A stretch of 64,000 bases of DNA, from contig PMZI01000023.1 of assembly GCA_003170475.1 (NCBI GenBank), positions 214,402 to 278,401 on the forward strand. The letters are read 5' to 3'. This stretch comes from Ignavibacteriota bacterium (lineage in GTDB: Bacteria; Bacteroidota; Ignavibacteria; UBA10030). The notes below the pieces were generated by a model that was not told where the DNA came from, made no database searches, and worked only from the letters and a program-made list of their open reading frames with translations. Positions 14,037 through 51,312 of the stretch are shown piece by piece. Made by a program: the position numbers and the translations under genes. How positions within the stretch are numbered: position 1 is the stretch's first letter; each line of letters starts with the position of its first letter.

Positions 14037-14154
14037 GCTGTTGTGTTACCAGACAGGATCGGATGGAGCTGCCCGTGCGGCCTCTCCGCGTCAAGACAGC
14101 ACTACCATCCCCCCTTCTCCTCGACTCTCTCAGATCCTACTGTATGAGGATACT

Positions 14155-16908: not shown

Positions 16909-16917
16909 GGTGACGCC

Positions 16918-18861: not shown

Positions 18862-18870
18862 AGGTGCCCC

Positions 18871-26683: not shown

Positions 26684-29600
26684 ATGAGATCCTCTTGGTT
26701 CAAAGTTCTCCTGATTCTCTTGATTAGCCTGTTGCCCGTTACGCTCCTGTTTGCCGGGAACGGAAAAATCTCCGGTGTCGTGAAAGATGCCACGGGGAAA
26801 GAAGTCGTTCCGGGCGCGAACGTGGTGATTGTTGGAACAACCATGGGCGCAGCGACAGACGAGCAAGGGCGATACTTTATTCTGAACGTTCCGCCTGGAA
26901 CGTACACCATCCGGGTAACGTGCGTAGGATATGCACGCACAGAGATCGGAGCGGTTCAGGTGCGCGCTGATCAGACGACAGACCTCAACATCAACGTGCA
27001 GCAGGAAAGTATCGAGTTGAAAGAAGTCGTCGTGCAGGCACAGGCTCGAGTTGTCGATAAGTCCCAGACCTCATCAAAGGCCATGGTGACAAAAGATGAA
27101 CTGGCCAACAAACTGCCTATCACCTCCGTCATCGAGATCTTGAACACGACCCCCGGTGCATTCAAAGGGTTCATCCGGGGAGGTAAAATAACAGAATCAA
27201 AGACCATCGTGGACGGCGTCGATGTGAGCGACCAGTACTACGCTATCGGCGGCGACCAGGCGAACCAGAATATTCTTTCCACCTCCGGCGGCTTGGTGCG
27301 ATACAGACAGTATCAACTGAGCAGCAATGCCTCCGTTAACTTTAACTCTATCGAGCAACTCTCTGTCAATACCGGAGCAGTCGGAGCTGACAATGTGTCG
27401 TCCAGCGCCGGTCTCATCAACTACTCCCTCCGTGAAGGACGCGGAAACATGACAGGGAGCTTCTCTGCAAAAACGAGCCAGATGGACGGTCTCAAATACG
27501 TCGGACCGGATCTCTACTGGAATGACTCGGTCTACTTCGCCGAGCAAACAGTAACAACGACTCGTCTCGCAGCCAACAAGGCTTTGCAGGCCACGTCCCC
27601 AACGGCCGCCCGACAGCTTCTGATTACGCCGGATAGCATCAAAGCCCTCAAGTACACCTACTACAAAGGAAAATACCTGAACCAGGACAAGCCGCAAATG
27701 GACATTGACGGTATGATCAGCGGCAGCATCACGGATAGCTGGGGATATTTGATCAGCGGCCGGTTCTTTGATTCCCATGAACGACTTCCCAACGAGCATG
27801 AGCGGGAAGCCGACGTGACAGTGAAATCGACCTACAACCTGGGGAGCGCATTTAAACTCACCGCTTTCGGAATCCTCAATGATAGAGGCCGACTGTTCGG
27901 TTGGAAGAACACATATTACAACGACCAATGGCGGTATTTCCTTGAAGGCGTACCGAAGAATGACGGTGTTACTGCCACAGGGAGCCTCAAGGCAACACAC
28001 GTGCTTTCCCCGAGTACTTTTTATGAAGTGCAGTTGAGCTCAACCTACGCCAATCAGCGTTACGGCTATTCCGATGATAACGGCGACGGTTTCTGTGCAC
28101 TGAATGAAAATGGTGAGTTCCTGACTTTGGAAAAAACGGCCGATATTGATAAATACATATCACGCTCGGGCATTGACCTGTACAAGTTCTTCCGTATTGG
28201 CGACGAAGCAGGTCCGAGTTTTATCACTCAGCCAATGACTTCCGGCAACACACAAGTCGGGATTACACGCCCGCAATTCATCTATGAGAATACCAGAACC
28301 TTGACCAGCACAGCGAAGGCCGACATTACCAGTCAGATTGACTATAACAATCAGCTCAAGGCCGGTCTCTCCTTCCAGTTCAACGATATCAGCAAGATCG
28401 AGAGAAACTCCGGACTCGGTGCTGACGCGACGGACGTACGAAGAAGACTGCTCGTTGAGGATTGGGATTTCCATCCGACCCTGTTTGGTGGTTACCTACA
28501 AGATCGCATGGAATATGCTGGTCTCGTGATCAACCTCGGTGCGCGTATCGACCGATGGGATCCTAAGGCAGCGGACTGGGCAAGCTACTACAACCTGTTT
28601 ATCAACCAGCCGGCGATGGTGGATGATAGCTTACGCCAAGATCTCATTCCACTTCGAAGCTCGAACAACGTGAAAGCGTACTGGTTCTTCTCACCGAGCA
28701 TCGGCGTGTCACATCCGATTTCGGATGAAGCGGCGATGTATTTCTCTTATAAACGCAGCTACACTCCGCCGCCCTACTCCCGCCTCTATGGGAGTTACGC
28801 AGAAGTGCTCGGTGCAGCTGGCGGGCTTCCACAGTTTGCCAGCCTGAATCAGCAACCGACCTCATCATCCAACTATGAAATCGGTGCGCAGTGGGAATTT
28901 GTCCCACGGAAGTTCGGTTTGACGTTCTCCGCGTACATGCGCGATATCCAAAACTACAGCTATCAGGGAATAACCCTGAACCTGGCCAATGGATCAAACA
29001 ATATGTGGATTACCGCTCAGTATGCCGACGCCCGTGGTGTTGAATTTGGACTCCAGGCGTTGCGCCAGACCTACTTTGATTTCGTCACCCTCTACGGACG
29101 CCTGAACTACTCGTACAGCTACATCAAAGCAACGGGCTGGACAGGAAACGATCCGCTGCAACAGACCACCTTCTCACGCCCCGATACGTTGAAGTACGGT
29201 CAATCTCTGCCGTTCGATGATTTCTGGTCGTACAACAAGGTTGAGAACAACGTGACAGGCGGAAACAATCTGTTGACGGGCGGTTATGACCGCGCTCACA
29301 GGATTACGTACGTGCTGTTCCTGGAATTCCCATATCAGATCATGCTTTCATCGATTGGTACATTCCAGAGTGGATTCTATTATCCGTTGTCTCTGACAGC
29401 TGATCCACGTGTTGCGGGCCGCGCTTTTGGTCAGGCCCCATGGAACAAGCAGGTGGACATTCGGATTGAGAAAGGATTCACGATCGAAAAGATCAAGTTC
29501 GCAGTGTACTTCGATATGAAGAACGTACTCAATGCGGTGAATATCCTCGGGTATGACAACACGGCATCCGGTGCGGCACTTTGGGAATACTCCAACGCCG

Positions 29601-29728
29601 GCATGAAGACGTTGAATGACGGGACTCCTGATCCTACGGGCACCTACAAACGCGCTGTGTCCCTGAACGGAAGCCCCTTTTACGATATCCCGCGTGAGTA
29701 TTACTTTGGCGTGAGGATCGATTTCTAA
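26684..29728 (+). CDS. TonB-dependent receptor with carboxypeptidase-regulatory domain (module 2)
   Basis: A 1014-residue outer-membrane receptor. The signal peptide is about 1-24 (ending LLFAG) and the CarboxypepD_reg-like domain about 25-110 (GKISGVVKDATGKEVVPGANVVI, GTTMGAATDEQGRYFILNVPPG). The plug is at about 130-250 (VIEILNTTPGAFKGFIRGGKITESKTIVDGVDVSDQYY, IEQLSVNTGAVGADNVSSSAGLINYS). The barrel ends FGVRIDF with a terminal Phe. Its N-terminal domain closely resembles that of the module 1 receptor, so the two are paralogues, but the barrel is longer. The ATG follows AAGGAG. The gene leads a unit with a secreted protein and a PorV/PorQ protein. Confidence 0.95.
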   Translation: MRSSWFKVLLILLISLLPVTLLFAGNGKISGVVKDATGKEVVPGANVVIVGTTMGAATDEQGRYFILNVPPGTYTIRVTCVGYARTEIGAVQVRADQTTDLNINVQQESIELKEVVVQAQARVVDKSQTSSKAMVTKDELANKLPITSVIEILNTTPGAFKGFIRGGKITESKTIVDGVDVSDQYYAIGGDQANQNILSTSGGLVRYRQYQLSSNASVNFNSIEQLSVNTGAVGADNVSSSAGLINYSLREGRGNMTGSFSAKTSQMDGLKYVGPDLYWNDSVYFAEQTVTTTRLAANKALQATSPTAARQLLITPDSIKALKYTYYKGKYLNQDKPQMDIDGMISGSITDSWGYLISGRFFDSHERLPNEHEREADVTVKSTYNLGSAFKLTAFGILNDRGRLFGWKNTYYNDQWRYFLEGVPKNDGVTATGSLKATHVLSPSTFYEVQLSSTYANQRYGYSDDNGDGFCALNENGEFLTLEKTADIDKYISRSGIDLYKFFRIGDEAGPSFITQPMTSGNTQVGITRPQFIYENTRTLTSTAKADITSQIDYNNQLKAGLSFQFNDISKIERNSGLGADATDVRRRLLVEDWDFHPTLFGGYLQDRMEYAGLVINLGARIDRWDPKAADWASYYNLFINQPAMVDDSLRQDLIPLRSSNNVKAYWFFSPSIGVSHPISDEAAMYFSYKRSYTPPPYSRLYGSYAEVLGAAGGLPQFASLNQQPTSSSNYEIGAQWEFVPRKFGLTFSAYMRDIQNYSYQGITLNLANGSNNMWITAQYADARGVEFGLQALRQTYFDFVTLYGRLNYSYSYIKATGWTGNDPLQQTTFSRPDTLKYGQSLPFDDFWSYNKVENNVTGGNNLLTGGYDRAHRITYVLFLEFPYQIMLSSIGTFQSGFYYPLSLTADPRVAGRAFGQAPWNKQVDIRIEKGFTIEKIKFAVYFDMKNVLNAVNILGYDNTASGAALWEYSNAGMKTLNDGTPDPTGTYKRAVSLNGSPFYDIPREYYFGVRIDF

Positions 29729-29774
29729 GAGAACGACAATAGTTGTGAACAATACTATTATTGGGAGTAACACT

Positions 29775-32339
29775 ATGAACATGACAAGACAAAAAGAATT
29801 GCTTCTTGCGATTCTTGCTTTATTGCTCGTTGTCGTTCCGGTTTCATTGTTCGCCCAGACCGCATCCGCGACCTCGACGGTAAACTATCCTGGTGGCGGT
29901 GTGATTCAGGCGGGCGATGCGTGGGAATCATTCCTGCCGATGAGCTTTACACCGAGCTACAGCGACGCCGGAACGTACCTAACACAAGGCTACAAAAACT
30001 TCATACGCCTGGGTAATTTTGACAGAGCATGGTCAACCCCGGCCACACACTGGCCTGCTGCGTGGTTCTATACGAACTACTGGTACAAGAACGCATGGGT
30101 CGGAGCGTTTGATCCAGATCCAACATTCTGTCCGACAACCATTGGCGGCAAAACCAATCCAAGCTACTTCTCCGCCACGGCTGGAGGCAACAACTACGCG
30201 CAGATACAGTTTATGCCGACAGTGAACGGCGCAACGGACGCCACCCGCCACTATACCATTGAGCCATACTGGGTTGACGGCGCACGGCGGCAACATGCGG
30301 TGTACGAAGCGGCCTGGCCAACCAACCTGGGTATCGATGTGAAGATACGCGCCCACGGTTTCCAGGGACCAAACTGGGATAACCTGAACGACTTCGTCAT
30401 GCTAGAGGTCGAGTTGAAGAACACCGGAAATCTCGACATGAATATGGATGGTGTCGCGGAGAAGGTGAACAACACGATCAAAGCGCTGGCGTTTAGCTTC
30501 TCGGAAGAGAGATATATGTCCGTGAGCAGCTATTTGGGTGGTGGTCGTAACGCGAATGATGTTACACTGACACCGCTCGTCGCTCAGGGAGCATGGATAG
30601 ATGATGCCGATGCCAATGGTGCCCCGTGGGCATTTGCCACGATGTACCCCGGTGCGTCGGTGTTGAACCCCGCGCCCGGAACTGTCGACATCGGAAACAA
30701 TACCGGTGCACAGAAAAGGTACACCGATGTCTGGTCCGGCTTTGTCATCATCGATGCAAAGCAGGGTGGTTTGCCGGCCGATCGTTCGAAGACGGTTGTC
30801 GGTAATGCTGCGAAGAAAACTATCTATGGAACAGATCCTGTTGGTGTTGGCTCACAGCGGGGGTGGTATCTCTCCTCTGGTAGCCAGGCGCAGATCTGGG
30901 GCTCCAGTAACCCGAAGGCACAGTTCCTTACAGCGACCGGGACATGGTTCCTGGATGCCGGGAAGAGCCGACAAACGGACGCGCAGAATTTCAATCTTAA
31001 TCCGAATCCGAAGTTTTTCGCAAGTGGAACAACGGGTGATATGACAACGTTTGTTCCGTTGGCGAGCCCCGCACGCCCGGATGGAGATTTCAAAGCGTCG
31101 GGCATTTTTGACAATCCATCGTATGAAGATGGTACAGCCTCCGCCGGAGTTCCCTACCCAACCGGCTGGGGAAAATGGACCAAAGGAAGCAGCAACACGG
31201 AGAACTTCAATGGTGATATGTTCACCGGCATTGGCCCATTCAGCCTTGCCCCGAACGAATCTATGACAATCGTCATGGCAACCGTTGCAGGATTTCGCCT
31301 CGAAGGTATCCAGAAGGCCGTTCGTGCAGCACGCTGGGCGTATTCACAGAACTACGCCATCCCCGTGTTGCCGAATTTGCCCAACATGAAAGTCACCAAC
31401 ACCCTGACAAAATCTGTCGCGGTGGAGTGGGACAAGACTGCAGAATCAGACGCTGATTTTGCTGGATACAAGATCTACAAATCCTCGCAGTACGTGAAGA
31501 AGTACTGGCTGCAAGAAGGTATGCGTGTCGTCGACCGGTATCAGGAAAACATGACGCCCGGACCGATTCCGGATGCCCTCAAGAAGCCAGTCAACCCGAA
31601 GTTCGACGCATTTGGTGTCTTTGCCGCGACTTCAACACAGCATTCCTATCAGCCTGATACATGGGGCACATGGGATCTGATCGCAGTAGTTCCGAAGGCA
31701 TCGCTTGCCAGTTATCCGACATCCTCGACTACCGGGTATAATTACAGATACGAAGATAAAGATGTAGTCCTCGGCTTCTCGTACTGGTACTATGTTGCTG
31801 CCTACAAGGAAGGAACGTATACCGGACCCGATGGCGAGACGACCAATCGTATCGAGACGCACTCAACCAATCGAAATGGTGCTACCGGATTGTGGCAACT
31901 CACATTCCCGTTTGCAACCAATAACGCCAACTTTGGAAAACTCGCGCCGACTGACGCCGCAGCAAGCTCTGCAGGATTGAAGGGCATTGGCGCAGTGCAG
32001 ATCGTGTACTCTGCGCTGGCTCCGGCCGGAAGCGTTGCCACCGTTGGAGTTCGCCCGAACCCGTATAAGAAAGCTGCACTGCATGATAACAGGGCGAACG
32101 TGTATGATCACAAGTTGTTGTTCTACAATCTGCCCCCAGCGTGCAAGATTACAATCACGGATGTCGCGGGTCAGGTGATCGATGTGATCAACTTCACTTC
32201 TGCCGACGCGAACAAAGGAAGCACATTCTGGGATATGTTCTCCAAGGATGGCCTCGAGTGCGCTAGCGGACTCTACCTCTATATCGTCGAGTCGCCAACT
32301 GGTGACAAGAAGATAGGTCAATTCTCGATACTACGATAA
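29775..32339 (+). CDS. large secreted protein with FlgD/T9SS-type C-terminus (module 2)
   Basis: An 854-residue exported protein of unknown function, positional counterpart of the 16918 protein. The signal peptide ends at about residue 31 (LFAQTASA). The long middle region is rich in Gly, Asn and aromatics with no recognised enzyme motif. At about 550-580 is a fibronectin-like segment (VAVEWDKTAESDADFAGYKIYKS) matching the one in module 1. The C-terminal 100 residues (VGVRPNPYKKAALHDN, LPPACKITITDVAGQVIDVI, SGLYLYIVESPTGDKKIGQFSILR) form the FlgD/T9SS-type domain. The ATG at 29775 follows GGGAG. It is 46 bases after the receptor gene and probably co-transcribed. Confidence 0.85.
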   Translation: MNMTRQKELLLAILALLLVVVPVSLFAQTASATSTVNYPGGGVIQAGDAWESFLPMSFTPSYSDAGTYLTQGYKNFIRLGNFDRAWSTPATHWPAAWFYTNYWYKNAWVGAFDPDPTFCPTTIGGKTNPSYFSATAGGNNYAQIQFMPTVNGATDATRHYTIEPYWVDGARRQHAVYEAAWPTNLGIDVKIRAHGFQGPNWDNLNDFVMLEVELKNTGNLDMNMDGVAEKVNNTIKALAFSFSEERYMSVSSYLGGGRNANDVTLTPLVAQGAWIDDADANGAPWAFATMYPGASVLNPAPGTVDIGNNTGAQKRYTDVWSGFVIIDAKQGGLPADRSKTVVGNAAKKTIYGTDPVGVGSQRGWYLSSGSQAQIWGSSNPKAQFLTATGTWFLDAGKSRQTDAQNFNLNPNPKFFASGTTGDMTTFVPLASPARPDGDFKASGIFDNPSYEDGTASAGVPYPTGWGKWTKGSSNTENFNGDMFTGIGPFSLAPNESMTIVMATVAGFRLEGIQKAVRAARWAYSQNYAIPVLPNLPNMKVTNTLTKSVAVEWDKTAESDADFAGYKIYKSSQYVKKYWLQEGMRVVDRYQENMTPGPIPDALKKPVNPKFDAFGVFAATSTQHSYQPDTWGTWDLIAVVPKASLASYPTSSTTGYNYRYEDKDVVLGFSYWYYVAAYKEGTYTGPDGETTNRIETHSTNRNGATGLWQLTFPFATNNANFGKLAPTDAAASSAGLKGIGAVQIVYSALAPAGSVATVGVRPNPYKKAALHDNRANVYDHKLLFYNLPPACKITITDVAGQVIDVINFTSADANKGSTFWDMFSKDGLECASGLYLYIVESPTGDKKIGQFSILR

Positions 32340-32364
32340 CAAAATAACTATGAGGGCAAGATCT

Positions 32365-33405
32365 ATGAAAAAGATCTCTTCAATATCTATTGCGGCTTTG
32401 CTCCTCGTGGTTTTTGCCACCGGGATCGTGACCGCTCAGACGCGCAAGGCGGGTATCAACGCCGCTGCGTTTCTGAAGGTCGGCGTAGGGGCGCGGCAGA
32501 TCGGCATGGGATCGGCCGTCACATCCACGAATGGGGACGTGACGAACATGTTCTGGAATCCCGCCGGTGTTGCGCTTCACGATGAGAAAGCCCAAGTGTC
32601 ATTTACCTACAACTCGTGGATCGGCGGACTTACACAGAACGCTGTGGCCGCGAGCTACAATATGGAAAATATCGGCACCCTTGGTATTGGCGTGATGACG
32701 TTCGGGATGAGTGGTATCCCGGCCGACCGTGACGTCTATCCGGGGAATGCCGTATTGCAAGGACTCCAGATTGACCAGGCAACATCAGACACGTACGACT
32801 ATATGGACATGCTCGCTCAGGTGACATATTCGACGTATGTGATGAACCGGTTGGCACTGGGTGCGTCGGTAAAGTTCATTCATGAGAAGATCGACGATCA
32901 GGCTGCCACGGCCATTGGGTTTGACCTGGGATCAGTCTACAATATCGGCCTCTTAGACTGGAACATCGGAGCCCGAGTGAGCAATCTGGGTAGCGACATG
33001 AAGTTCTATGACTACCCCTCCCCGATTCCGTTGACGTTCGCCATGGGAACATCCATGGTTCCGGTACGTATCGGATCGAGTTCGGTGATGGTTGCAGTCG
33101 ATCTCGTGAAGCCCCAGGATGGTCAACAGTACTACTACAGCGGCCTGGAGTACAACTACAATAACACCATATTCCTCCGCGGCGGCTGGAAGTTTAACTA
33201 CAGCTACCTTGGACTCGCCGGCGACGGCATTGACGAAGGAACGACACTGCGTCAAGGAGTCCAGACGAGCCTGGAAAAAGGATCGTTGGGTGCGGGCGTA
33301 CGCGTCCCCATGGCAGAGTATATGCTCGCCCTGGATTATTCGTACACCGTATTCACATCCTTCTCCGACGTACACCGCTTAACGCTTCGCGTTTCCATGA
33401 AATAA
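32365..33405 (+). CDS. PorV/PorQ-family outer-membrane protein (module 2)
   Basis: A 346-residue paralogue of the 18871 product. The signal peptide is about 1-25 (ending VTAQT). The family opening AAFLKVGVGARQIGMGSAVTS, with the DVTNMFWNPAGVALHDEKAQVSFTYNSWIGG stretch, is followed by barrel strands such as NIGTLGIGVMTFGMSG, LALGASVKFIHEKIDD and GFDLGSVYNIGLLDWNIGARVSNLG. The gene is 25 bases after the secreted-protein gene. The upstream ATG at 32350 lacks a Shine-Dalgarno, so the ATG at 32365 after GAGGG is preferred. The unit ends at the terminator at 33535. As in module 1 the protein could dock or export its neighbour; this is inference. Confidence 0.92.
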   Translation: MKKISSISIAALLLVVFATGIVTAQTRKAGINAAAFLKVGVGARQIGMGSAVTSTNGDVTNMFWNPAGVALHDEKAQVSFTYNSWIGGLTQNAVAASYNMENIGTLGIGVMTFGMSGIPADRDVYPGNAVLQGLQIDQATSDTYDYMDMLAQVTYSTYVMNRLALGASVKFIHEKIDDQAATAIGFDLGSVYNIGLLDWNIGARVSNLGSDMKFYDYPSPIPLTFAMGTSMVPVRIGSSSVMVAVDLVKPQDGQQYYYSGLEYNYNNTIFLRGGWKFNYSYLGLAGDGIDEGTTLRQGVQTSLEKGSLGAGVRVPMAEYMLALDYSYTVFTSFSDVHRLTLRVSMK

Positions 33406-33892: not shown

Positions 33893-34927
33893 TTGAGTAC
33901 GCAAAATCTACCCCTCCTTCCAACAAGCGTCATTGGGAGTTATTCATTTCCACGCTGGCTTGATCAGGTCCGTGACCTTGGAACCAAGGGTGTTTTGACA
34001 CACGACCAGGTTGAAGAAGCCCACGACAACGCAGTGAAATCTGTTATCAAGGATCACGAACTCGCGGGCGTCGACATTATTACCGACGGCGAGATTCGCC
34101 GGGAAACGATGGTGTACTTCTTCTCGAAACGCATCCACGGCTTTGACTTCGAACACACGAAGTTGCATGCTATCGGAAACCTGGACCCATCGATTCAAAT
34201 GCCGGATCCCGTTATCCGGGACAGAGTGAAGTGGCAGCAAAGCCTCACCATGGACGAGCATTTCAAGTTCCTGAAGGAACATGCTGTTGCGCACACCAAG
34301 GTGTGTGTGACGGGTCCCCAAATGCTTGCCAAGCGAGCGACGAACGAGTACTATAAAGATGAGAAAGAACTCATTTTCGACCTTGCGGGAATTCTGAACA
34401 GGGAGCTCAAAGGGCTCGTTGCGGTCGGTTGCGACTTCATCCAGATTGACGAACCGGTCTGGGTGGGGTATCCACAGGACATGCCGTGGCTGGTTCAGAC
34501 GTTCAACAAGCTTGTTGAGGGGGTGAATGCAAAGATTGCTCTTCATGTATGTTACGGCAACTATCAGCTCAAGAAACTCTTCACGGGACAATATGCAGAG
34601 CTCTTTCCCGCGATCCTTGAAACGCATACGCAACAACTCTGTTTGGAGTTCGCCGTTTCGGATGGTGTCGGGCTCGAGCTCTTTCAACAGTACAAGACCG
34701 ACAAGGAAATAGCGATTGGGGTCATCGATGTGAAGGATGATACGGTCGAATCGCCGGAGGTGGTCGCTCAACGGATCCGGCATGCGTTGAAGTATATTCC
34801 CGCGGAGAAAATGTCCATTGTTCCGGACTGCGGGATGAAGTTCATGCCGCAGGCGCGAGCCTTTGGAAAGCTGAAGGCTATGGTGGAGGGGGCGCGGATC
34901 GTGAGAAAAGAACTGGGTGTAGCATAG
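33893..34927 (+). CDS. cobalamin-independent methionine synthase (MetE C-terminal domain)-like protein
   Basis: A 344-residue single-domain protein of the UroD/MetE-like superfamily, corresponding to the C-terminal catalytic barrel of MetE without the N-terminal barrel. It opens LPTSVIGSYSFPRWL, has GVDIITDGEIRRETMVYFF and IQIDEPVW, and keeps the zinc ligands as His218 and Cys220 (LHVCYGN), probable Glu252 and Cys313 (VPDCGMKF). So it is likely a Zn-dependent methyltransferase acting on a thiol, though methionine synthesis itself is not proven. The start is TTG at 33893 after AAAGGA. It is the first gene of the long plus-strand carbohydrate locus; another UroD-superfamily gene follows at 37214. 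Confidence 0.9.
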   Translation: MSTQNLPLLPTSVIGSYSFPRWLDQVRDLGTKGVLTHDQVEEAHDNAVKSVIKDHELAGVDIITDGEIRRETMVYFFSKRIHGFDFEHTKLHAIGNLDPSIQMPDPVIRDRVKWQQSLTMDEHFKFLKEHAVAHTKVCVTGPQMLAKRATNEYYKDEKELIFDLAGILNRELKGLVAVGCDFIQIDEPVWVGYPQDMPWLVQTFNKLVEGVNAKIALHVCYGNYQLKKLFTGQYAELFPAILETHTQQLCLEFAVSDGVGLELFQQYKTDKEIAIGVIDVKDDTVESPEVVAQRIRHALKYIPAEKMSIVPDCGMKFMPQARAFGKLKAMVEGARIVRKELGVA

Positions 34928-34954
34928 ACAAAATTCGAATACCAAACCACGAAG

Positions 34955-35101
34955 GAAATCCGAAATGCTTAATATCGAAACCCTAAACAAATCCAAAACT
35001 TTAAATACCAAATTCTAAACCGCGATGCCCGTTTGTGATTTGCGAGCTTAGGATGTAAGGTTTGCGTTTTCTTTGAGATTTCGATATTCGGATTTAGGAT
35101 T
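34955..35101. repeat. AT-rich imperfect inverted repeat
   Basis: AAATCCGAAAT and AATATCGAAACCCTAAA on the left match the reverse complement of GATTTCGATATTCGGATTT on the right, with AAAC/TTTG-rich sequence between. It differs sharply in composition from its neighbours and abuts the apparent 5' end of the next gene. Confidence 0.6.
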
Positions 35102-35128
35102 TAAGAGTGGTTTCTTAAGAGGTACACC

Positions 35129-36985
35129 ATTTCAACCTTTCCGTGGTTACGAAATCTCAGCGATTTTTTCGTAGGAAGCCTGCGAAGTGCGAAACATTTC
35201 GATCGGGAAGCATACATCCGACAATTGGCAAACCAAGGCTTCACGCATGTGAGCATCAATGGTCTCGGTGTTGATCGGCCGTTTGAGTCCGGACCACCGG
35301 GAGATGTGTACTCGTGGTTCTACGACTACAGCCCGGACCTGGACCAGTTCGTGACGAGTAAGCTGATCGAGGGATTCTATCCAGCGGAATACCTCCGGAA
35401 GAACCTCGAATTCCTGAAAGCGGGTGCCGATCTTGCATTGAACAACGGACTGGTGCCCGGGCTGCATATCAACTCGCCCCGATCGATGCCCGACGCATTC
35501 TGGGGGAAGTATCCCTTTCTTCGTGGAGCACGCATTGACCACCCCCGGGAAAGCTTCCAACCCCGCTATACTCTCGCCATGGCTCACCCGGTTGTTCAGC
35601 AACACTATCGGGAGCTCATCCAGAACATTCTGAGGGAAGTGCCGCATCTGGGCTTCATTCACATTTGGTCGAACGACAGCGGGTCGGGATTTGAGTTTGT
35701 GACGTCGTTGTATGCGGGTCGGAACGGAGGGCCTTATCTGATTCGCGAATGGAAGAGTGACGATGACATTGCGCGCAAGGCTGCGGAGAACGTACTCACA
35801 TACTATCGCCTGCTGAGGGATGAAGCAAGAAAGGTGAATCCAGAATTTCGCGTGATTTGCGATCTCGGGCCGTTCTACGCCGAACGTAAGTATATCGCCC
35901 CCAATCTTGGCGGAGGTCTTGATGCGGGAGCTTTCGGCTCTTTCGAGGGATCGGAGAGCATGGATGAACGCGAACAGTTGAATGGCGTTGGTGCGATTGT
36001 TCATCAGAAACTGGATCTTGGGGACAACAACATCCTGGGGGTGCCGTGTCCAAAACTCACACTCGAGCGCCTGCAACTGGCAGCAAACGCCGGTGCAACA
36101 TCCGTGCTCGTGGGAGCGACGCCACGCTCGCTGGCTCCCTATGATATCAACGGGGATGTTCTCCAGGCATTTCAACGGGATTCCCAGACGCCCCTGGAGG
36201 ATGTTCTCAACGCAAAGGCAGAGCAATGGGTCGGTTCAGCGCATGTGGAGATTTTGAGGCAGCTCTGGGATTTGTCGGACACGGCAGTGCGCTCATATCC
36301 AGTCGGGGTTCCGTACAGCACTTTTGCGTTTCCATGGTTTCGGCTGTGGGTCCGACCGTTCGTACCCAACATCGAGGCCATCCCGGAATTAGACCGTTTC
36401 TATTACGAGCGTGATCTTCTTGCCACGTTCAACAACCCTGCACGCATCGACTTGAACAACGACATGATGTGGAACTTTCTGACGGTGCAAGAGGCTGGAG
36501 AAAAGAAACGAGCTATCGACCGGTCGGTGCTTCCGCCTCTTCGTCAAGCACTTACGAGTTTGACAACGATACTTCAGCGCATCGATCACACCACTCCGGC
36601 GGGAAAAGTATTTCAGGATCTCCACGACCGCCTTTGGGCCGCGCAGTGCTACTATCGGACAATGAGAAACAGCGTTGCATGGACAGAATCGGTACATGGC
36701 GCCATGGAGGCGCGGACGCAGTCCGAGAAGCATGCCTTTCAGCAAATGTGTCGTGACATGGTTGCGAACGAACTGCAAAACGCGAACAACCTTCTGAAGC
36801 TCTGGAAAGAAAGCAAGGTTGATTGGGTGCCGATTTCTTCCATTGGTGAATCACTTCATATGTATGGAGAAAACTTCGGCGATCACCTCCAGCGCAAAAT
36901 CAAGCTCATGGCAGAGCACATCGATGACGAACCGTACATCGATCCGAACTACATGTGGAGAATGCCGAACGGAAACTCCAATTGA
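35129..36985 (+). CDS. TIM-barrel glycosidase-like hypothetical protein, 5' end doubtful
   Basis: A large conserved protein I do not assign to a family with certainty. Stretches such as REAYIRQLANQGFTHVSING, GLHINSPRSMP, HIWSNDSGSGFEFV, YAGRNGGPYLIREW and LLRDEARKVNPEFRVICDLGPF suggest a glycoside-hydrolase-like barrel. A lone TTG start at 35225 would cut into conserved-looking sequence. The same frame is open back to 35105, and PWLRNLSDFFVGSLRSAKHFDREAYIRQL upstream looks coding. The only start-like codon with a Shine-Dalgarno (AAGAGG) there is ATT at 35129, giving 618 residues. The gene may use ATT, or may have lost its 5' end next to the AT-rich inverted repeat. There is no signal peptide. 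It lies between the MetE-like and UroD-like genes. Confidence 0.65.
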   Translation: MSTFPWLRNLSDFFVGSLRSAKHFDREAYIRQLANQGFTHVSINGLGVDRPFESGPPGDVYSWFYDYSPDLDQFVTSKLIEGFYPAEYLRKNLEFLKAGADLALNNGLVPGLHINSPRSMPDAFWGKYPFLRGARIDHPRESFQPRYTLAMAHPVVQQHYRELIQNILREVPHLGFIHIWSNDSGSGFEFVTSLYAGRNGGPYLIREWKSDDDIARKAAENVLTYYRLLRDEARKVNPEFRVICDLGPFYAERKYIAPNLGGGLDAGAFGSFEGSESMDEREQLNGVGAIVHQKLDLGDNNILGVPCPKLTLERLQLAANAGATSVLVGATPRSLAPYDINGDVLQAFQRDSQTPLEDVLNAKAEQWVGSAHVEILRQLWDLSDTAVRSYPVGVPYSTFAFPWFRLWVRPFVPNIEAIPELDRFYYERDLLATFNNPARIDLNNDMMWNFLTVQEAGEKKRAIDRSVLPPLRQALTSLTTILQRIDHTTPAGKVFQDLHDRLWAAQCYYRTMRNSVAWTESVHGAMEARTQSEKHAFQQMCRDMVANELQNANNLLKLWKESKVDWVPISSIGESLHMYGENFGDHLQRKIKLMAEHIDDEPYIDPNYMWRMPNGNSN

Positions 36986-37050
36986 AGCTCTGCGTCGACT
37001 GAAACTGACAGAAATGAAAGAACGAAATCATTCGTGGCAACACCACCGCT

Positions 37051-37122
37051 GTGTCGCCCCGACACGCTTCTGGTTGGGACCTCGTTGTTGAGACCCCGAA
37101 CAAAGGCACTTCGGGGTGACAT
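37051..37122 (-). repeat. dispersed CCCGA/TCGGG repeat, minus orientation
   Basis: Read on the minus strand it gives TGTCACCCCGAAGTG, TTCGGGGTCTCAA, CGAGGTCCC and GTCGGGGCGAC, matching in order the copy at 46429. The remaining part of the 36986-37213 gap holds nothing else I can identify. Confidence 0.6.
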
Positions 37123-37213
37123 GTAAATTTCAAGCCAGCGAGGCAATGGCGTCGACCAAAGTCGGCGCCCACAATCGAGGACAACGGGCCAGGATACGAC
37201 AAGAAGAGATATC

Positions 37214-38365
37214 ATGCTGCACTCGATCAACATACAATACCCACTTCACGAAATGGAGCTCAGCAAGAGAAGGTGGGAAGCGGCATACAGATTCGGATGG
37301 ATGGACCGAGCACCGGTGTTTCTCGGCATTGAAGCTCGCTATCTGCTTCGTGAACGCCACGTGACGTTCGCCGAGTATTTCAGTGATCCGAAGACGCAGT
37401 TCATTCAGCAACTTGAAAATCTGAAATGGCGCATTGAGAATATTCCGGACGATTGGTTTACGAAACCGACCCTCACGGTCTTGCCTGATTTTCAGAATGT
37501 CGCCAATGCCAGCGGGTGCGGCTGCGAGATCCTTTGGCAGGAGAATGAAACGCCTCAAGCAATTGACCGGATCCTTACGATCGATGAGATGATTCATCAC
37601 GAGCTTCCCGACTGGCATGACACGCTGTGGGGAAAGCGGCTGGCGTGGTATCAGGAGATGAAGAGACTCGCGGAGGAAGTCGATGTGCGGCTGAACGGTG
37701 AGCGAACCCCCGTCACCGTGACACTTGGGATCAATGCCGATAGTCCGTTTATGACAGCCGTGGACCTGGCTGCTGGGAATTTCTATAACTGGCTCCTTGA
37801 AGCTCCCGAGGAATGTAAAACATTTCTGCAGAAGATCACGAATCGCTATATTGAAGTCGAGACCGAGTTTCGTCGCGTGTCGGAAAGGCCGCTTGATGAT
37901 GGGTTGATGTACTCCGATGATTCGGCACAGATCATTTCACCCGAGCAATATCGGGAGTTTTGTGTCCCCGTTGGTCGCCAACTCTATGGCATATTTGGCA
38001 ACGGCAGGCACGACGGCAGGATGATGCATCTTTGCGGAAGAAATGTCCATCTCCACGAATCTCTTCTCAACGATCTTCACATCACGATGTTGACAGGCTA
38101 TGGTTCCGAGAATGCGCCGGACGAAATGCGTCTCCTGGCAGGCAAAATGCTCCTTCATGGAAATATCAATCCCATGACGCTGTTGAGGGGGACACCCCAT
38201 GGTGTTGCAGAGGAAACGATGATCCTCTTGAACACCCTCGCGCCGTTTGGCGGTATTATTGTTGGAGATGGGTACAATGTTGCGCCGGACTCGCCGCTCG
38301 AGAACCTGGGGAGCGTCCGGAAAGCGTGCGAGCAGTATGGAATGCCGCCGACAGTGCATCAATGA
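37214..38365 (+). CDS. uroporphyrinogen decarboxylase (UroD/MtaA)-family protein
   Basis: A 383-residue protein of the UroD-like superfamily, not the heme enzyme itself. It shows DDGLMYSDDSAQIISPEQYREFCVPVGRQLYGIF, the MMHLCGRN motif with His and Cys resembling the zinc site of MtaA-type methyltransferases, LTGYGSENAPDE, LLHGNINPMTLLRG and GGIIVGDGYNVAPDSPLENL. UroD-like proteins of this kind are common in carbohydrate loci and are mostly uncharacterised; corrinoid or thiol methyl transfer is the best-known activity of the relatives. No corrinoid protein is encoded nearby. The ATG follows AGAAGAG. Neighbours are the glycosidase-like genes on either side. Confidence 0.85.
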   Translation: MLHSINIQYPLHEMELSKRRWEAAYRFGWMDRAPVFLGIEARYLLRERHVTFAEYFSDPKTQFIQQLENLKWRIENIPDDWFTKPTLTVLPDFQNVANASGCGCEILWQENETPQAIDRILTIDEMIHHELPDWHDTLWGKRLAWYQEMKRLAEEVDVRLNGERTPVTVTLGINADSPFMTAVDLAAGNFYNWLLEAPEECKTFLQKITNRYIEVETEFRRVSERPLDDGLMYSDDSAQIISPEQYREFCVPVGRQLYGIFGNGRHDGRMMHLCGRNVHLHESLLNDLHITMLTGYGSENAPDEMRLLAGKMLLHGNINPMTLLRGTPHGVAEETMILLNTLAPFGGIIVGDGYNVAPDSPLENLGSVRKACEQYGMPPTVHQ

Positions 38366-38428: not shown

Positions 38429-40024
38429 ATGAAAGAAACCTCTTTCCACTGCGGTCACGACAAACTCGATGCTCTCTATCCCCGCATCAAGAATTTCCTC
38501 ATGAAGGATGTCACCGAATACAACATGTTCGGTGCGAAAGTCCGCGGTTACCGCACTCCGGATACCCCGAGCCTGTGGATTCGCGATTACTCGGACATGA
38601 TGCGAGGCTTTCGGTATTGGGAAAGTGACATGAAGAGTCTCGTGGACCACTTCGCTGAAATGCAGTCGGCGAAAGGATGGTTGTTTGATTACTTCACGAT
38701 GACTCCGGAGAAAGTCCCCTGCGAAAAGGAAAATTGGGCCAAGTATGTACGCGTCCCGGTCGAAGCGGACGTCGAATACCGTTTCATCAAGGCGATTTAC
38801 CTGGCATGGCAGGCGACGGGGGACGACCGGTGGGTGAAGAACCTGCTGCCGCGGATGGAAAGGGCGCTCAACTATATTCTGACGGACGAATGGAGATGGG
38901 ACAAGAAAACCAAACTCGTCAAGCGAGGTTATACCATCGATACATGGGATTTTGATTACACGGCTGGACGCCATTCATGGCTCAACTTTCAGGTGAATGA
39001 CGATACCTACTGGGGTATCATGCACGGTGATAACTCCGGGTACTATGAAGCGTTCAACCAGATGGCGACGCTGTATGCTCATCTTGACATGAAGAGCCGC
39101 GCCCGACATTGGAGCTCGTATGCGGAAGCATTCCAGCGGCGAGCAAATAAAGTCTGCTTCAACGGAACATTCTATACACATCATGTTCATCTCGTACCGG
39201 TCTCCATTGATGGAGTAGACGAAAGCAGGCAGTTGAGTCTCAGCAATCCGATGAATATTAATCGAGGTCTTGCGACGCACGCAATGGCCGTGAGTATTCT
39301 TCGGGAATATCAACAGCGAGGTAAAGCGCAGGGAGCCTTTGCTGACTGGTTTAGTCTCGACCCCCCGATGCCGGATGGAATCTATGGTGATGATAAGCTT
39401 GTCGCCGGAGCATATTGCAATGGCGGTTTGCTGCCTCTTGTCGGCGGAGAATTGGCGCGGGCGGCATTTGATCATGGATTCGAAGAGTATGGAGTCGCAC
39501 AACTCCTCAAGTATGAGCAACTCACTGCCAACAACGAAACGTATCTCTGGTACTTTCCGGACGGCAGAAAATCGACCGTGGAAACGAGCACGAGTCCGGA
39601 TGCATCGCCGACCGACGGGTGGGGCTCCTCGGCAATGCTCTATGCGCTGTTTGAAGGGCTGGCGGGGATTGTCGATGAAGGCAAACTCTTTCAGAGTGTG
39701 CGCCTCTCTCCGCGATGGCTTGCTGCAGGAAGAAGTGAAGCGTCAGTCTGCGTGACGTACGGAGCTTCGGGGGCATCGTTTGGGTACAGTTTTGAACACA
39801 ATGCATCCTCCAAAACTATTGAGATCAAGATAACGGGAAAAGCCGTAACGCGTCTTCACGTCCTTCTCCCCCGGGGAACAAAATCGACGCAAGTTACTCT
39901 AGGGACAAGAAAACTGAAGTTTCGCAATACAAAGATGGAAGAAAGTTCTTATGTTGATGCAGATGTCGACGTAAAAAAGAACGCCGTTGTTCTTATCCGA
40001 TACCAAGAAGAAGTCAACTCATGA
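38429..40024 (+). CDS. six-hairpin glycosidase-like protein, cytoplasmic
   Basis: A 531-residue protein with the look of an (alpha/alpha)6 glycosidase: PSLWIRDYSDMMRGFRYW near residue 50 (an aromatic-Arg-Asp motif as in GH15/GH63 relatives), EADVEYRFIKAIYLAWQATGDDRWV, YYEAFNQMATLYAHLDMKSRA, and DGWGSSAMLYALFEGLAGI with SVRLSPRWLAAG before a C-terminal beta-domain (about 430-531). No signal peptide is visible, unlike the two Tat-type relatives downstream, so it should act in the cytoplasm on an imported oligosaccharide. The GH family cannot be named safely. It overlaps the next gene by ATGA, indicating translational coupling. Confidence 0.75.
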   Translation: MKETSFHCGHDKLDALYPRIKNFLMKDVTEYNMFGAKVRGYRTPDTPSLWIRDYSDMMRGFRYWESDMKSLVDHFAEMQSAKGWLFDYFTMTPEKVPCEKENWAKYVRVPVEADVEYRFIKAIYLAWQATGDDRWVKNLLPRMERALNYILTDEWRWDKKTKLVKRGYTIDTWDFDYTAGRHSWLNFQVNDDTYWGIMHGDNSGYYEAFNQMATLYAHLDMKSRARHWSSYAEAFQRRANKVCFNGTFYTHHVHLVPVSIDGVDESRQLSLSNPMNINRGLATHAMAVSILREYQQRGKAQGAFADWFSLDPPMPDGIYGDDKLVAGAYCNGGLLPLVGGELARAAFDHGFEEYGVAQLLKYEQLTANNETYLWYFPDGRKSTVETSTSPDASPTDGWGSSAMLYALFEGLAGIVDEGKLFQSVRLSPRWLAAGRSEASVCVTYGASGASFGYSFEHNASSKTIEIKITGKAVTRLHVLLPRGTKSTQVTLGTRKLKFRNTKMEESSYVDADVDVKKNAVVLIRYQEEVNS

Positions 40025-42297
40025 AAAGAAGAGATTTTCTCAAAGCGCCAGCAGCCGGAATGCTCCTCGCCCCAGGATTCAGTTTTGCGGAAGGGTCCCC
40101 CCGAACGCAACAGGCGCAAGAGCAAGTGAGCTCCGGCCAGCAAATGGTTGAACAGAAAATGCACCCGGATTTTATCACCTTCTTTCCCGGGATTGAATAC
40201 TTTCTTCTGGGCAACGGCGACATCATGGGCGCGGTTCAGTATTCACCTCTTGATGCGCAGGCATCGTATTTTGGATTCACCCTAATGAATGCTGAGCGTT
40301 TTTGCCGCAAGTGGAGCACCTTCTTGTATCATCCCGAGCGGGGTTTTGGCGCAACTCGCATGGGAGTAACGATTGACGAAGAAAGTCCCGCCACTGACAC
40401 AAAATCCGGTATGTATACAGGGGTCAAGGGTTACGCGGTAGCGCCCGACAACTTCAAATCCATTCAACGCAAGTATCCCGACCACGTCCCTGTAGTATCG
40501 ATGGTCTGGATGGCGGGGGAGTGTGAGGTGGAGGAAGAATTCTTTGTACCCAGTGAGGGTTCGATACTCTTCCGTCGTGCGACCGTGAAGAATCTTTCCG
40601 TGAAGACGTTCAAAGCCGGAGTGAGCCTTTCGCTTTACGCAAATTTTGGTCTGTTCGACGAAATCGCGGTCGACGAAAAAGAAAAGACCGCTCATGCGTA
40701 TGGCATAGAGAAAATGAAACTGGCTTCTCTCGACAAGGAAGTTACGGTGGCTGGTCGGTACGATGTCAGGGTAAATATCGGCACTTTGAAGCCGGGAGAG
40801 TCCAAACAAGCGACCTACGTCTACTCGATCCGGGATGGAGCCGCGATTCTGAAGAAAAAGTCTTTTAGTGCTCTCTGGAAGGAAACAGCAGCGTACTGGT
40901 CCAACAAGAGTTTCATCGAAACCAAGAACGAAACCGCCGATCATTTTCTAAACACCTCCAAGGCATGCATGAAAGCCGTGGTGGCGCGCAGCGGCAAGAT
41001 GGATGCCGGTCCGTGGATGTACAACATGGAATGGGTTTCCGACCATGCTCTGGCCGTTGAAGCATTGCTTCATTGCGGTATGTTCGACGAAGCGAAAACG
41101 ATGATCGAACGCAACCTGGCGCATGCAATCGGGCCTGACGGACGAACGATTGAATCCAGTCGATGGTTCGGATACGACTATACCGAACTGAATCAGAATG
41201 GTATGCTGCTCTATGGGTTGTGGGTATATCTCTGTTGGACGGGCGATCTCGAACTGGCGAGAAAGTATTGGAAGAAGATAGAACTCTGTGCGAATTTTCC
41301 GCTGCTGGAGAAGTTTCGCGATAAGCAAACGAAGATGGTCAAGAACAAAAGGGAGTTCTGGGAGCGGAGCGACACGCACGGGATTGAAGAAGGGTATGAG
41401 ATGGCGTACCAGTTTTGGGTCGCCTTCGGCCTGGAGAAAGCCGCCGTCATCGCCGAGTCGCTCGGCAAGAAAGCCGCTGCGAAACAATGGTCAACCGCTG
41501 CGGCAGAGACGAAAAACACAATGCTCAATGATCCAAAATGGAGGTTGATCGAGGACGGTCATTTCATCAAACGGCGGAAGGTAACGGGTGAATGGCAACA
41601 GGTGACGATTCCCCCCGATCGGAAACGGATGCCCCCGGGTTCACAGCTCGCACTCAATGAAAAGCCCTCGCTTGAACCAGATGCCGTTGAAATATATCCG
41701 AGCATCTATCGATTTGTTGATCCCAGGGGCGAACTGTCGATCAACACGCTCAAGTGGGTGGAACAGACGTGGAACCAACAATGGGAGGGAGGGGGCTATC
41801 CCCGCTATAACAGCACCGGAGATGATAATCCCCCATCACCCTGGCCGTTGGCTTCGATGCTGATTGCCCGTGCATACGCCGAGGCCGGGAATGACGAAAA
41901 AGTGTGGAGAGTTCTGGAGTGGCTGCGGAGTATTGGCGGCGGGAAGTCCGGTGGGTGGTTTGAGCGAATCGGCCAGAGCATAACGCCGCCCATGCCGCCG
42001 GTCGCAGTTGTCAATTGGACCTGGTATGAAATTCTGGCCCTCTTCATTCTTGATGTCATTGGATTCAGGCCGCAGCTTGACCATCTTGAGATAAAGCCGA
42101 GACTCCTGAGCGGCCTTGACGAGATTCACTCGCAGTTCAAAATCCGTGGTGCCCGCATCGACCTAACGCTGAGAAGGTCCAAAGACACCAACAGTGCACG
42201 AGTCAACGGAAAAGAAGTGACCATCAAGGACGGATCTCTTTCGATTCCGTATCCCGCCAGGGGGACAACAATCATTGATTTCACAATTGCAGGATAA
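40021..42297 (+). CDS. Tat-exported GH15-like six-hairpin glycosidase (paralogue A)
   Basis: A 758-residue protein with a Tat signal (KRRDFLK, then a hydrophobic stretch ending FSFAEG). An N-terminal beta-domain (about 40-290, VEEEFFVPSEGSILFRRATVKNL) precedes an (alpha/alpha)6 barrel (about 300-690, WMYNMEWVSDHALAVEALLHCGMF, SRWFGYDYTELNQNGMLLYGLWV, NKREFWERS, EAGNDEKVWRVLEWLRSIGGGKSGGWFE) and a short C-terminal beta-domain. It is clearly paralogous to the protein at 54411. The GH15-type WVRD motif reads WVSD here, so Arg is replaced by Ser; activity may be altered. It should act in the periplasm or at the surface. The start overlaps the previous stop (ATGA). Confidence 0.85.
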   Translation: MKRRDFLKAPAAGMLLAPGFSFAEGSPRTQQAQEQVSSGQQMVEQKMHPDFITFFPGIEYFLLGNGDIMGAVQYSPLDAQASYFGFTLMNAERFCRKWSTFLYHPERGFGATRMGVTIDEESPATDTKSGMYTGVKGYAVAPDNFKSIQRKYPDHVPVVSMVWMAGECEVEEEFFVPSEGSILFRRATVKNLSVKTFKAGVSLSLYANFGLFDEIAVDEKEKTAHAYGIEKMKLASLDKEVTVAGRYDVRVNIGTLKPGESKQATYVYSIRDGAAILKKKSFSALWKETAAYWSNKSFIETKNETADHFLNTSKACMKAVVARSGKMDAGPWMYNMEWVSDHALAVEALLHCGMFDEAKTMIERNLAHAIGPDGRTIESSRWFGYDYTELNQNGMLLYGLWVYLCWTGDLELARKYWKKIELCANFPLLEKFRDKQTKMVKNKREFWERSDTHGIEEGYEMAYQFWVAFGLEKAAVIAESLGKKAAAKQWSTAAAETKNTMLNDPKWRLIEDGHFIKRRKVTGEWQQVTIPPDRKRMPPGSQLALNEKPSLEPDAVEIYPSIYRFVDPRGELSINTLKWVEQTWNQQWEGGGYPRYNSTGDDNPPSPWPLASMLIARAYAEAGNDEKVWRVLEWLRSIGGGKSGGWFERIGQSITPPMPPVAVVNWTWYEILALFILDVIGFRPQLDHLEIKPRLLSGLDEIHSQFKIRGARIDLTLRRSKDTNSARVNGKEVTIKDGSLSIPYPARGTTIIDFTIAG

Positions 42298-42300
42298 CAG

Positions 42301-43584
42301 ATGAGACGAAGCGATTTTTTTAAAACCGCGCTTGGTGCAGCCGCCGTCGCAGGGCTTTCCGGGTTCACACGGAGGGACAACAAAGCAATTCGCCCGGCAG
42401 AAGTCTGGCCGGCAATCGACCCAGAAGACGAACAATTCTGGAAATTCGTCCGGACGCAGTTTCCACTGACCGATGAACGCGCGTACCTGAACACCGGCGG
42501 CCTTGGTGCATCACCCTACGCCGTCATCGATGCTGTCAAAGCAAAGATGGACGAGCTGGAAAAAGTTGCAGAGACCGGACATTCAGAAGAACTCTGGAAA
42601 GAAGTCAAAACCGACGCGGCGCAGTTGTTCGGGTGTGATCCGACGGAACTTGCATTCACCCGGAACGCGACCGAAGGTATTAATATCGTGTGTAATGGAT
42701 TGCCGCTCAAACGCGGCGATGAAATGATCACTACGACGCACGAGCATGTCGGGAACGCCGTTCCATGGCTGGCGCTGCTGAAGCGGGAAGGGATTATCAT
42801 CAACCTCTTTGAGCCATCAACGCTCTCGGCCCAGGAAAATGTGGACCGGATCGAGAAGTTGATCACGAAGAGAACCCGGCTCATCAGCGTTCCGCACGCA
42901 ACGACGACGACAGGGCAGGTTCTTCCGATCAAGGCCATCGCTGCACTCACGAAAACAAAGGGGATTTGGCTGTTTGTTGACGGCGCTCAAACGGCGGGAA
43001 TGTTTCCATTCAGTCTCCATGATCTCGGATGCGATGCGTATGCGACGAGCGGACACAAGTGGATGCTCGGACCAAAAGAAACAGGCTTCCTGTACGTTCG
43101 GAAAGACATGCTGGATGTCGTTCAGCCAAAAACGGTCGGCGCTTACTCGGGGAACGGATTTGATCTGGAAAAGAGGACATTCGATTTCACTCCAAGCGCA
43201 CAACGTTATGAGTACGGGACCGTGAGCATTCCACTTCGGTTCGGCCTTGGTGCCGCAATCAGGTTCCTTCAGAAAATTGGAATGGAAAACGTGTGGAAGC
43301 GGGACCAGTCGCTTTCCACAAGACTTTTTACGGGGTTGAAGTCGATTCCGTATGTGACTGTCCTTTCTCCTGAAAGCAAAACGGAGAGAAGCGCGCTCGT
43401 TACGTTCAAGCACGAAAAAGTCCCGTACGGCGATCTTCAACGTCATCTCGACACATATAAACTCCGAACGCGTGGTGTGGGCGAAGGCGGAGTCAACGCT
43501 CTTCGAATCTCCACACATCTCTATAATATGCCGGAGGAGGTTGACCGCGCGTTGGAAGCAATAAAATCTGCCTACAAGGGGTAA
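42301..43584 (+). CDS. aminotransferase class V-fold PLP enzyme with Tat-like N-terminus
   Basis: A 427-residue fold-type I PLP protein related to cysteine desulfurases and isopenicillin N epimerase (CefD-like). Landmarks are AYLNTGGLGASP, FTRNATEGINIV, TTHEHVGNAVPW, FVDGAQTAGMFPF and SGHKWMLGPKETGFLYV with the Schiff-base Lys. Its first residues MRRSDFFKTALGAAAVAGLSGF resemble a twin-arginine signal, but the RR is followed by SDFF rather than xFLK, so export is uncertain. Tat can carry cofactor-loaded proteins, so export of a PLP enzyme is possible. The substrate is unknown; epimerase, desulfurase or C-S/C-N lyase chemistry are all possible. It starts 3 bases after the glycosidase gene. Confidence 0.85.
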   Translation: MRRSDFFKTALGAAAVAGLSGFTRRDNKAIRPAEVWPAIDPEDEQFWKFVRTQFPLTDERAYLNTGGLGASPYAVIDAVKAKMDELEKVAETGHSEELWKEVKTDAAQLFGCDPTELAFTRNATEGINIVCNGLPLKRGDEMITTTHEHVGNAVPWLALLKREGIIINLFEPSTLSAQENVDRIEKLITKRTRLISVPHATTTTGQVLPIKAIAALTKTKGIWLFVDGAQTAGMFPFSLHDLGCDAYATSGHKWMLGPKETGFLYVRKDMLDVVQPKTVGAYSGNGFDLEKRTFDFTPSAQRYEYGTVSIPLRFGLGAAIRFLQKIGMENVWKRDQSLSTRLFTGLKSIPYVTVLSPESKTERSALVTFKHEKVPYGDLQRHLDTYKLRTRGVGEGGVNALRISTHLYNMPEEVDRALEAIKSAYKG

Positions 43585-45077: not shown

Positions 45078-45100
45078 GCAACCTCTTCTGTGAGGAACAT

Positions 45101-47825: not shown

Positions 47826-47827
47826 CC

Positions 47828-51255: not shown

Positions 51256-51312
51256 TGCGCCTGGCACCTTGGTACAGACAGGAATTGACGGAGAATGTAT
51301 GAGAGAGGTCAC

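Follow-up and report, generated by a model that had tools for sequence, protein, structure and literature searches.

A MetE-like gene fixed in a sugar-breakdown locus of Ignavibacteria-type Bacteroidota, and its possible part in the re-use of glycan methyl groups

Glycans of algae, plants and bacteria commonly bear methyl ethers. The locus described here is a gene cluster for sugar breakdown that carries a relative of methionine synthase. The window analysed is the whole stretch of 64,000 nucleotides taken from an Ignavibacteriota bacterium (assembly GCA_003170475.1, contig PMZI01000023.1, positions 214,402 to 278,401), in which three neighbouring genes are at issue:

33893..34927, + strand: MetE-like core methyltransferase, 344 amino acids, TTG start, without N-terminal folate domain; Pfam PF01717
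35153..36985, + strand: glycosidase-like gene; TIM barrel and helical C-terminal part in the predicted fold
37214..38365, + strand: UroD-superfamily protein, 383 amino acids, ATG start; URO-D, PF01208

An earlier note on this DNA had placed the two methyltransferase-like genes in a sugar locus, with a glycosidase-like gene between them, and had read this as a sign that methyl groups of a sugar derivative are removed or transferred. Both frames are real and intact. The MetE-like gene proves to be a fixed component of an Ignavibacteria-type sugar-breakdown gene cluster and, to judge from sequence comparisons, is not a housekeeping methionine synthase. Because this conserved cluster carries its own methionine-synthase relative lacking a folate domain, sometimes beside a second methyltransferase-like gene, the analysis suggests that Ignavibacteria-type bacteria may strip and re-use the methyl groups of methylated sugars.

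Residues 9-335 of the MetE-like protein match Meth_synt_2 (PF01717, E 1.4e-41), and this is the only gene in the host genome to match that family. Pfam found no N-terminal folate domain in the 344-residue frame, a result that applies to the frame itself, since no genome-wide search with PF08267 for a split partner was made. In an alignment of 24 orthologues the zinc ligands H218, C220, E252 and C313 are identical throughout; the three ligands listed in the earlier note (His218, Cys220 and Cys313) are therefore correct, and E252 is present as the fourth. Equally invariant (24/24) are S16, E67 and D186, which align, by comparison with 3rpd, to the homocysteine-binding triad; residues for homocysteine binding in core methionine synthases have been named by Price et al. 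(PMC7857596). Because ligands and triad alike are identical in 24/24, the enzyme probably acts on homocysteine (or methionine). A family-specific stretch, TGPQMLAKRATNEYY, read from the alignments, replaces the usual loop of MetE.

The protein matches 11 NCBIfam models, in each case short of the cut-off; the best match is to the methionine-synthase model NF003317 (319 bits against 406). In a phylogenetic tree its family occupies a long separate branch, away from full-length MetE and from two rows that we call MesD-like because each lies beside a DUF1852-like protein. The family, together with two relatives from other phyla, also stands apart from two further short Bacteroidota groups. Bona fide MetE, whose phylogenetic placement the note had proposed as a check, is ruled out as the identity of the window protein by the NCBIfam scores and the tree, and MesD is ruled out because the two MesD-like rows branch far away. 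The tree has no MesA, MesB or MesC rows; support for the ten-row orthologue group is 63/91, close to the base of this family the branching order is uncertain, and L128, L129, L157 and L158 lie outside every group of the group tests. The two short Bacteroidota groups (L231-L236, L239, L240, L242 and L243) consist of MetE-like proteins ~32-37% identical to that of the window, and in L236, L242 and L243 the neighbouring protein starts with a shared WWLGQSG motif. More distant MetE-like genes (~30-33%), at L128:1609-2568 and L129:4229-5200, sit among sugar genes (GHb, a glycosidase-like type described below, DUF4432 and MocA; SSF, XI and IclR).

The relatives searched comprise 198 genomes, some of them incomplete assemblies, with the host genome's own MetE-like gene counted in. 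MetE-like matches of any kind occur in 38 of the 198 and close orthologues (62-86% identity) in 30; the carriers number 31 with G023, which was scored from a 24-residue match at a contig end, and 30 without it. Neighbourhood DNA was taken for all 30 close orthologues, and locus counts given below refer to 44 loci. Every contig-internal close orthologue (30/30) has the glycosidase-like gene or a glycosidase gene designated GHa within ~10 kb, and 27 of the 30 have a PorV-like gene within the same distance. Genes of the locus usually stand in the order TonB receptor, secreted protein, PorV-like, MetE-like, glycosidase-like, (UroD or PhyH), GHa, GHb, class-V aminotransferase and transporter. Carriers with named records are Ignavibacteria/Kryptonia-type Bacteroidota. 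The MetE-like gene is tied to the locus in several families of the class, more than chance would give, and the setting described in the note for one stretch of DNA is a standing one.

The host genome also encodes a 1231-residue MetH. Judged by its activation domain (PF02965), MetH is present in 26 of the 31 carriers (weakly in G175, E 5.4e-12), and four Kryptonia-type carriers have full-length MetE instead; G086 alone (88% complete, no PF02965 match) shows neither. Because 30 of the 31 carriers thus hold another methionine-synthase candidate, housekeeping would not be the need that the MetE-like protein serves, and for the same reason a short MetE homologue in a member of the Bacteroidota is not by default to be labelled as the cell's methionine synthase.

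In the UroD-like protein residues 99-375 match URO-D (PF01208, E 1.3e-22), a family found at 19 places in the host genome. HemE, which the note had set as the competing identity, is ruled out by a score of 18.9 bits to the hemE model (cut-off 302.95); the MtaA and CmuA models give 35-49 bits against cut-offs of 235-400. The nearest solved relative is MtaA (4ay7), and the second is CdmB (9rui). The HLCG motif is kept, as the note had it, at 272-275, with H272 and C274 identical in all of 17 aligned relatives, and D235, D236 and D352 are invariant. The third Cys of MtaA is replaced by Y, F, S or N at position 354, followed by an invariant N355 (17/17), and the His-Cys-Cys zinc site of MtaA-type thiol methyltransferases is incomplete in the UroD-like protein and in all 17 relatives. 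S-Methyltransferases of the UroD superfamily use His-Cys-Cys, O-methyltransferases replace Cys (Kountz and Balskus, PMC10418091), and CdmB functions without zinc (PMC13222342). Because the third Cys of thiol methyltransferases is absent, the UroD relatives would fit an oxygen-type substrate. UroD orthologues (at least 59% identity) are present in 12 of the 198 genomes, and in 11 of these adjoin the glycosidase-like gene; eight genomes hold both the orthologue and the MetE-like gene, four the UroD orthologue alone, and 23 the MetE-like gene alone.

A PhyH dioxygenase is encoded in 10 of the 44 loci, in nine of them between the glycosidase-like gene and GHa, and in L111, on a contig without GHa, directly 3' of the glycosidase-like gene; the PhyH genes of L105 and L117 were found by tblastn. 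The HxD motif and a later His are present in all eight aligned PhyH proteins. UroD and PhyH as strict alternatives are ruled out, as L062 and L064, of one genus, carry both. PhyH-family dioxygenases (PHYHD1) demethylate 2'-O-methyl nucleosides (PMC12709175). The presence in one slot of two unrelated enzyme types, each with O-demethylating kin, is suggestive of a sugar demethylation step, though not proof of one.

Further methyl-transfer genes lie outside the window. On the host contig, ~56-60 kb downstream of the MetE-like gene (L183:7165-12669), a single row comprises genes for a UroD protein, a corrinoid protein (L183:8153-8851), MtaB (L183:8878-10248) and a second, full-length member of the glycosidase-like family, in an island that also holds enolase-superfamily, FAA-hydrolase, dihydroorotate-dehydrogenase-like, cyclase, M20, GH3 and GH38 genes. 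This MtaB matches 2i2x with 311.9 bits and has the same residues at the positions of its zinc ligands E164, C220 and C269; the host genome also encodes a RACo-type activase. The observation in the earlier note that no methionine, haem or corrinoid genes lie near holds for the Pfam-scanned open reading frames of the window, but not for the wider region, given the MtaB-corrinoid-UroD row ~58 kb downstream on the same contig. In L120, L121 and L148 the genes for UroD, corrinoid protein, MtaB, glycosidase-like and MetE-like proteins follow one another in this order on the same strand, no gap between them exceeding ~305 bases; in L120, whose set was scanned, the corrinoid protein has both B12 domains and MtaB scores 528 bits. 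MtaB occurs in 30 of the 198 relatives, in 21/31 MetE-like carriers versus 9/167 others. The counts for both, MetE-like only, MtaB only and neither are 21/10/9/158 by genome (Fisher p 3.4e-14) and 12/4/4/83 by genus (p 1.8e-9), the tests ignoring shared descent. The UroD orthologue co-occurs with MtaB in 11 of its 12 genomes. A second methyl-transfer region of the host genome, L175 (C27:181000-200900), encodes three UroD proteins along with an S-methyl_trans protein, a corrinoid protein and a MetH activation domain that stands by itself.

In the reading that we prefer, a glycan-degradation locus has acquired for its own use a homocysteine S-methyltransferase of the 'core' (folate-independent) type: the MetE-like protein would work alone and with zinc, and would pass to homocysteine the methyl groups freed on breakdown of methylated sugars. 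This proposal is tentative, and we place it somewhat short of an even chance. What the sequences show directly is the presence and synteny of the genes, the conserved residues, the company of MtaB and the corrinoid machinery of the host genome; homocysteine as acceptor is read from the residues, and the methylated sugar as source, the corrinoid as donor and the part of UroD are inferred. In genomes with a corrinoid set, the host included, the likely donor would be a corrinoid protein loaded by MtaB or UroD-type methyltransferases; the UroD-like protein of the window would be one of the enzymes attacking the methoxyl group, and in some relatives the PhyH dioxygenase may replace or accompany it.

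Several observations weigh against this reading. The relatives in L157 (Chloroflexota) and L158 (Abditibacteriales), with MetE-like proteins 56-57% identical, lie outside such a locus, and in G001, G003 and G015, which retain the row glycosidase-like, UroD, GHa, no MetE-like gene was found. MtaB was not found in 10 of the 31 carriers, and the UroD protein beside MtaB in the host genome lacks HxC altogether. As a sink for a catabolic methyl flux methionine seems small. The Kryptonia-type carriers G131, G140, G178 and G184 showed neither MetH nor MtaB. A search for the B12-binding_2 domain was made in 15 genomes (the ten MtaB-less carriers, the carrier-free sister G161 and four MtaB-bearing carriers) and found it in 12; it gave no match in G131 and G178 (97% and 93% complete, each with the MetE-like gene in the standard locus), and in G140 and G184 one weak match each, to a protein of ~300 amino acids that in G184 begins like a MerR-type regulator. 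A universal corrinoid donor for the MetE-like protein is ruled out by these four Kryptonia-type carriers, which show no methyl-carrier corrinoid protein. Because none was seen there, their donor must be other than such a carrier, and for that reason the evidence favours calling the protein a homocysteine methyltransferase of the glycan locus over calling it corrinoid-dependent.

Among the alternatives, the one that survives best is that the MetE-like and UroD-like proteins serve the locus in separate steps, the UroD-like protein of the window being no methyltransferase but perhaps a TIM-barrel enzyme, poor in metal, with a sugar acid as its substrate. A fixed pair of the two is ruled out by their distribution, with 23 of the 31 MetE-like carriers lacking a UroD orthologue and four of the 12 UroD-bearing genomes lacking the MetE-like gene; the third zinc ligand is missing from all 17 UroD relatives, and two loci hold UroD and PhyH together. 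Set against this are the company of MtaB in 11 of the 12 genomes, the invariance of H272 and C274, and the fact that the closest solved relatives, MtaA and CdmB, are corrinoid methyltransferases, of which CdmB works without zinc (PMC13222342). We consider this alternative somewhat unlikely.

It might also be argued that the MetE-like protein serves as a spare methionine synthase that needs no B12 and shares only the promoter or the history of the glycan locus, with methylated sugars uninvolved. Its intact homocysteine and zinc residues, its best match to a methionine-synthase model (NF003317, 319 bits against 406) and its persistence in Kryptonia-type genomes devoid of corrinoid carriers would all agree with such a role. 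However, a spare would be added to a MetH or full-length MetE candidate already present in 30 of the 31 carriers, the four Kryptonia-type ones included; it would have remained bound to one locus in 30 of 30 cases across several families of the class; and it would have to function with no folate domain in a host genome that encodes no second PF01717 protein, so that we regard this explanation as quite improbable. A last alternative, in which the protein moves a methyl or alkyl group to or from a thiol other than homocysteine, or uses a sulfonium or methylthio donor imported with the sugar, with no O-demethylation, would be in keeping with the other thiols that members of the wider superfamily use (epoxide:CoM transferase, MtaA), with TGPQMLAKRATNEYY in place of the usual MetE loop, with the corrinoid-free Kryptonia-type carriers and with the cysteine-desulfurase-like gene in 16 of the 44 loci, but is made quite doubtful by the strong link of the MetE-like gene to MtaB, an enzyme of oxygen-bound methyl groups.

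If the preferred reading, a homocysteine methyltransferase serving the glycan locus, is extended to a full pathway, MtaB and/or UroD-type enzymes would load a corrinoid protein from the methyl ethers (or methanol) of a methylated glycan, and the MetE-like proteins, which would then form a fifth family of folate-free methionine synthases, bound to this locus, would move the methyl group on to homocysteine, thus feeding the methionine and S-adenosylmethionine pool without oxygen; corrinoid-free relatives would use another donor. Taken as a whole this scheme is unlikely. Of the removal or transfer of sugar methyl groups proposed in the earlier note, those parts stand that concern a MetE-like protein which is neither MetE nor MesD and is bound to the locus, and a UroD-like protein far from HemE; action as a pair does not, nor, beyond the window, does the supposed lack of corrinoid genes.

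The remaining genes of the window locus are as follows:

26684-29728, + strand: TonB-dependent receptor, of the outer-membrane module upstream of the MetE-like gene
29745-32339, + strand: secreted protein without Pfam family
32350-33405, + strand: PorV-like protein; no Pfam match
38429..40024, + strand: glycosidase GHa, predicted GH78 alpha-L-rhamnosidase fold (model pLDDT 80.7); no signal peptide noticed on reading
40021..42297, + strand: six-hairpin glycosidase-like GHb, Tat-like N-terminus as read from the sequence; its cluster in 19/44 loci
42301..43584, + strand: class-V aminotransferase / cysteine-desulfurase-like protein (PF00266, E 1.1e-66), Tat-like N-terminus; in 16/44 loci
43590..46198, + strand: FGGY sugar kinase (xylulokinase-like) and XylF-like binding protein, both below NCBIfam equivalog cut-offs
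46608..51255, + strand: ABC sugar permease, ABC ATPase and sodium:solute symporter (PF02653, PF00005, PF00474)

The outer-membrane module (26684..33405) is conserved upstream of the MetE-like gene in relatives. A second triplet of TonB receptor, secreted protein and PorV-like protein, homologous to 26684-33405 and followed by an M19 dipeptidase, occupies 14041-19830. Further downstream in the locus are LarA, IclR, DUF4432, MocA and heparinase-like genes; the LarA-family gene (lactate racemase type), at 51295-52593, has a counterpart in L114.

No Pfam or NCBIfam family was matched by the glycosidase-like gene, which aligns with 24 other rows at 40-80% identity. Its structure model (pLDDT 83) finds GH138 (6hzg, E 4.1e-9) as the best Foldseek match, followed by GH20, GH89, GH115 and GH67; the identity to GH138 is 9% and its VIA Z is 14.7, versus 15.7 for Cwp19, the best values being near 14-16. 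A product of the TIM-barrel glycoside-hydrolase type is predicted, in agreement with the note's description of the gene. The first ATG, GTG or TTG of its frame lies at 35225, yet homology starts at or before 35153. In the gap before it (34928-35225) an imperfect 41-base inverted repeat lies at 34971-35088, the only repeat of note in the intergenic gaps, and in the near relative L056 the glycosidase-like protein starts with a Tat-like N-terminus. For GHa the nine best VIA matches of the model are rhamnosidases (Z 28.8 to 24.4), and by modelling it has the GH78 fold. Family matches of GHb are weak (Glyco_hydro_65C, E 0.0044, below cut-off). Because of the likeness to GH78 and GH138 and the xylulokinase/XylF pair there is a hint of a rhamnose-, pectin- or xylose-containing substrate, though folds at 9-16% identity do not fix it.

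Literature searches, which mostly did not extend to subscription journals, retrieved no paper that assigns sugar demethylation to a MetE-like or UroD-like gene of a glycan locus. The routes of sugar demethylation that they did find are oxidative: a P450 acts on 6-O-methyl-galactose (PMC10033563), and PhyH (PHYHD1) provides a second example (PMC12709175). Both would likewise free a sugar of its methyl ether, but depend on oxygen, whereas the present locus combines UroD, MtaB or PhyH genes with a MetE-like protein. If the proposal is true, a route of sugar demethylation based on corrinoid or on zinc and thiol would supply a missing step of carbon turnover, and a function would be at hand for UroD-like genes, which are found repeatedly in sugar loci.

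The methanol system MtaB-MtaC-MtaA of methanogens and acetogens likewise pairs MtaB with a corrinoid protein, found here near the window locus or inside the loci of relatives. It differs in that the UroD protein beside the host MtaB lacks the zinc ligands of MtaA, in that the set lies inside a glycan island, and in that the acceptor could be the MetE-like protein. With the corrinoid methyltransferases of the UroD superfamily (MtaA/CmuA, the O-demethylases OdmB/VdmB, and CdmB) the UroD-like protein of the window shares the URO-D family and the HxCG motif, and differs from them in its replaced third Cys and its low MtaA and CmuA model scores. Full-length MetE has a C-terminal catalytic domain ~24-30% identical to the MetE-like protein in the relatives searched, and an N-terminal half which the latter lacks; both types coexist in Kryptonia-type genomes. 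Core methionine synthases take methyl from methylcobalamin in vitro (PMC7005905). The core synthases MesA-MesD (PMC7857596) and the core-MetE of Dehalococcoides (PMC7005905) resemble the MetE-like protein in their ~340 residues, single catalytic domain, H-C-E-C zinc site, S/E/D triad and lack of a folate domain. The MetE-like protein is set apart by a branch separate from the MesD-like rows, scores below all matched NCBIfam cut-offs, the presence of MetH in most carriers, and its place in a glycan locus.

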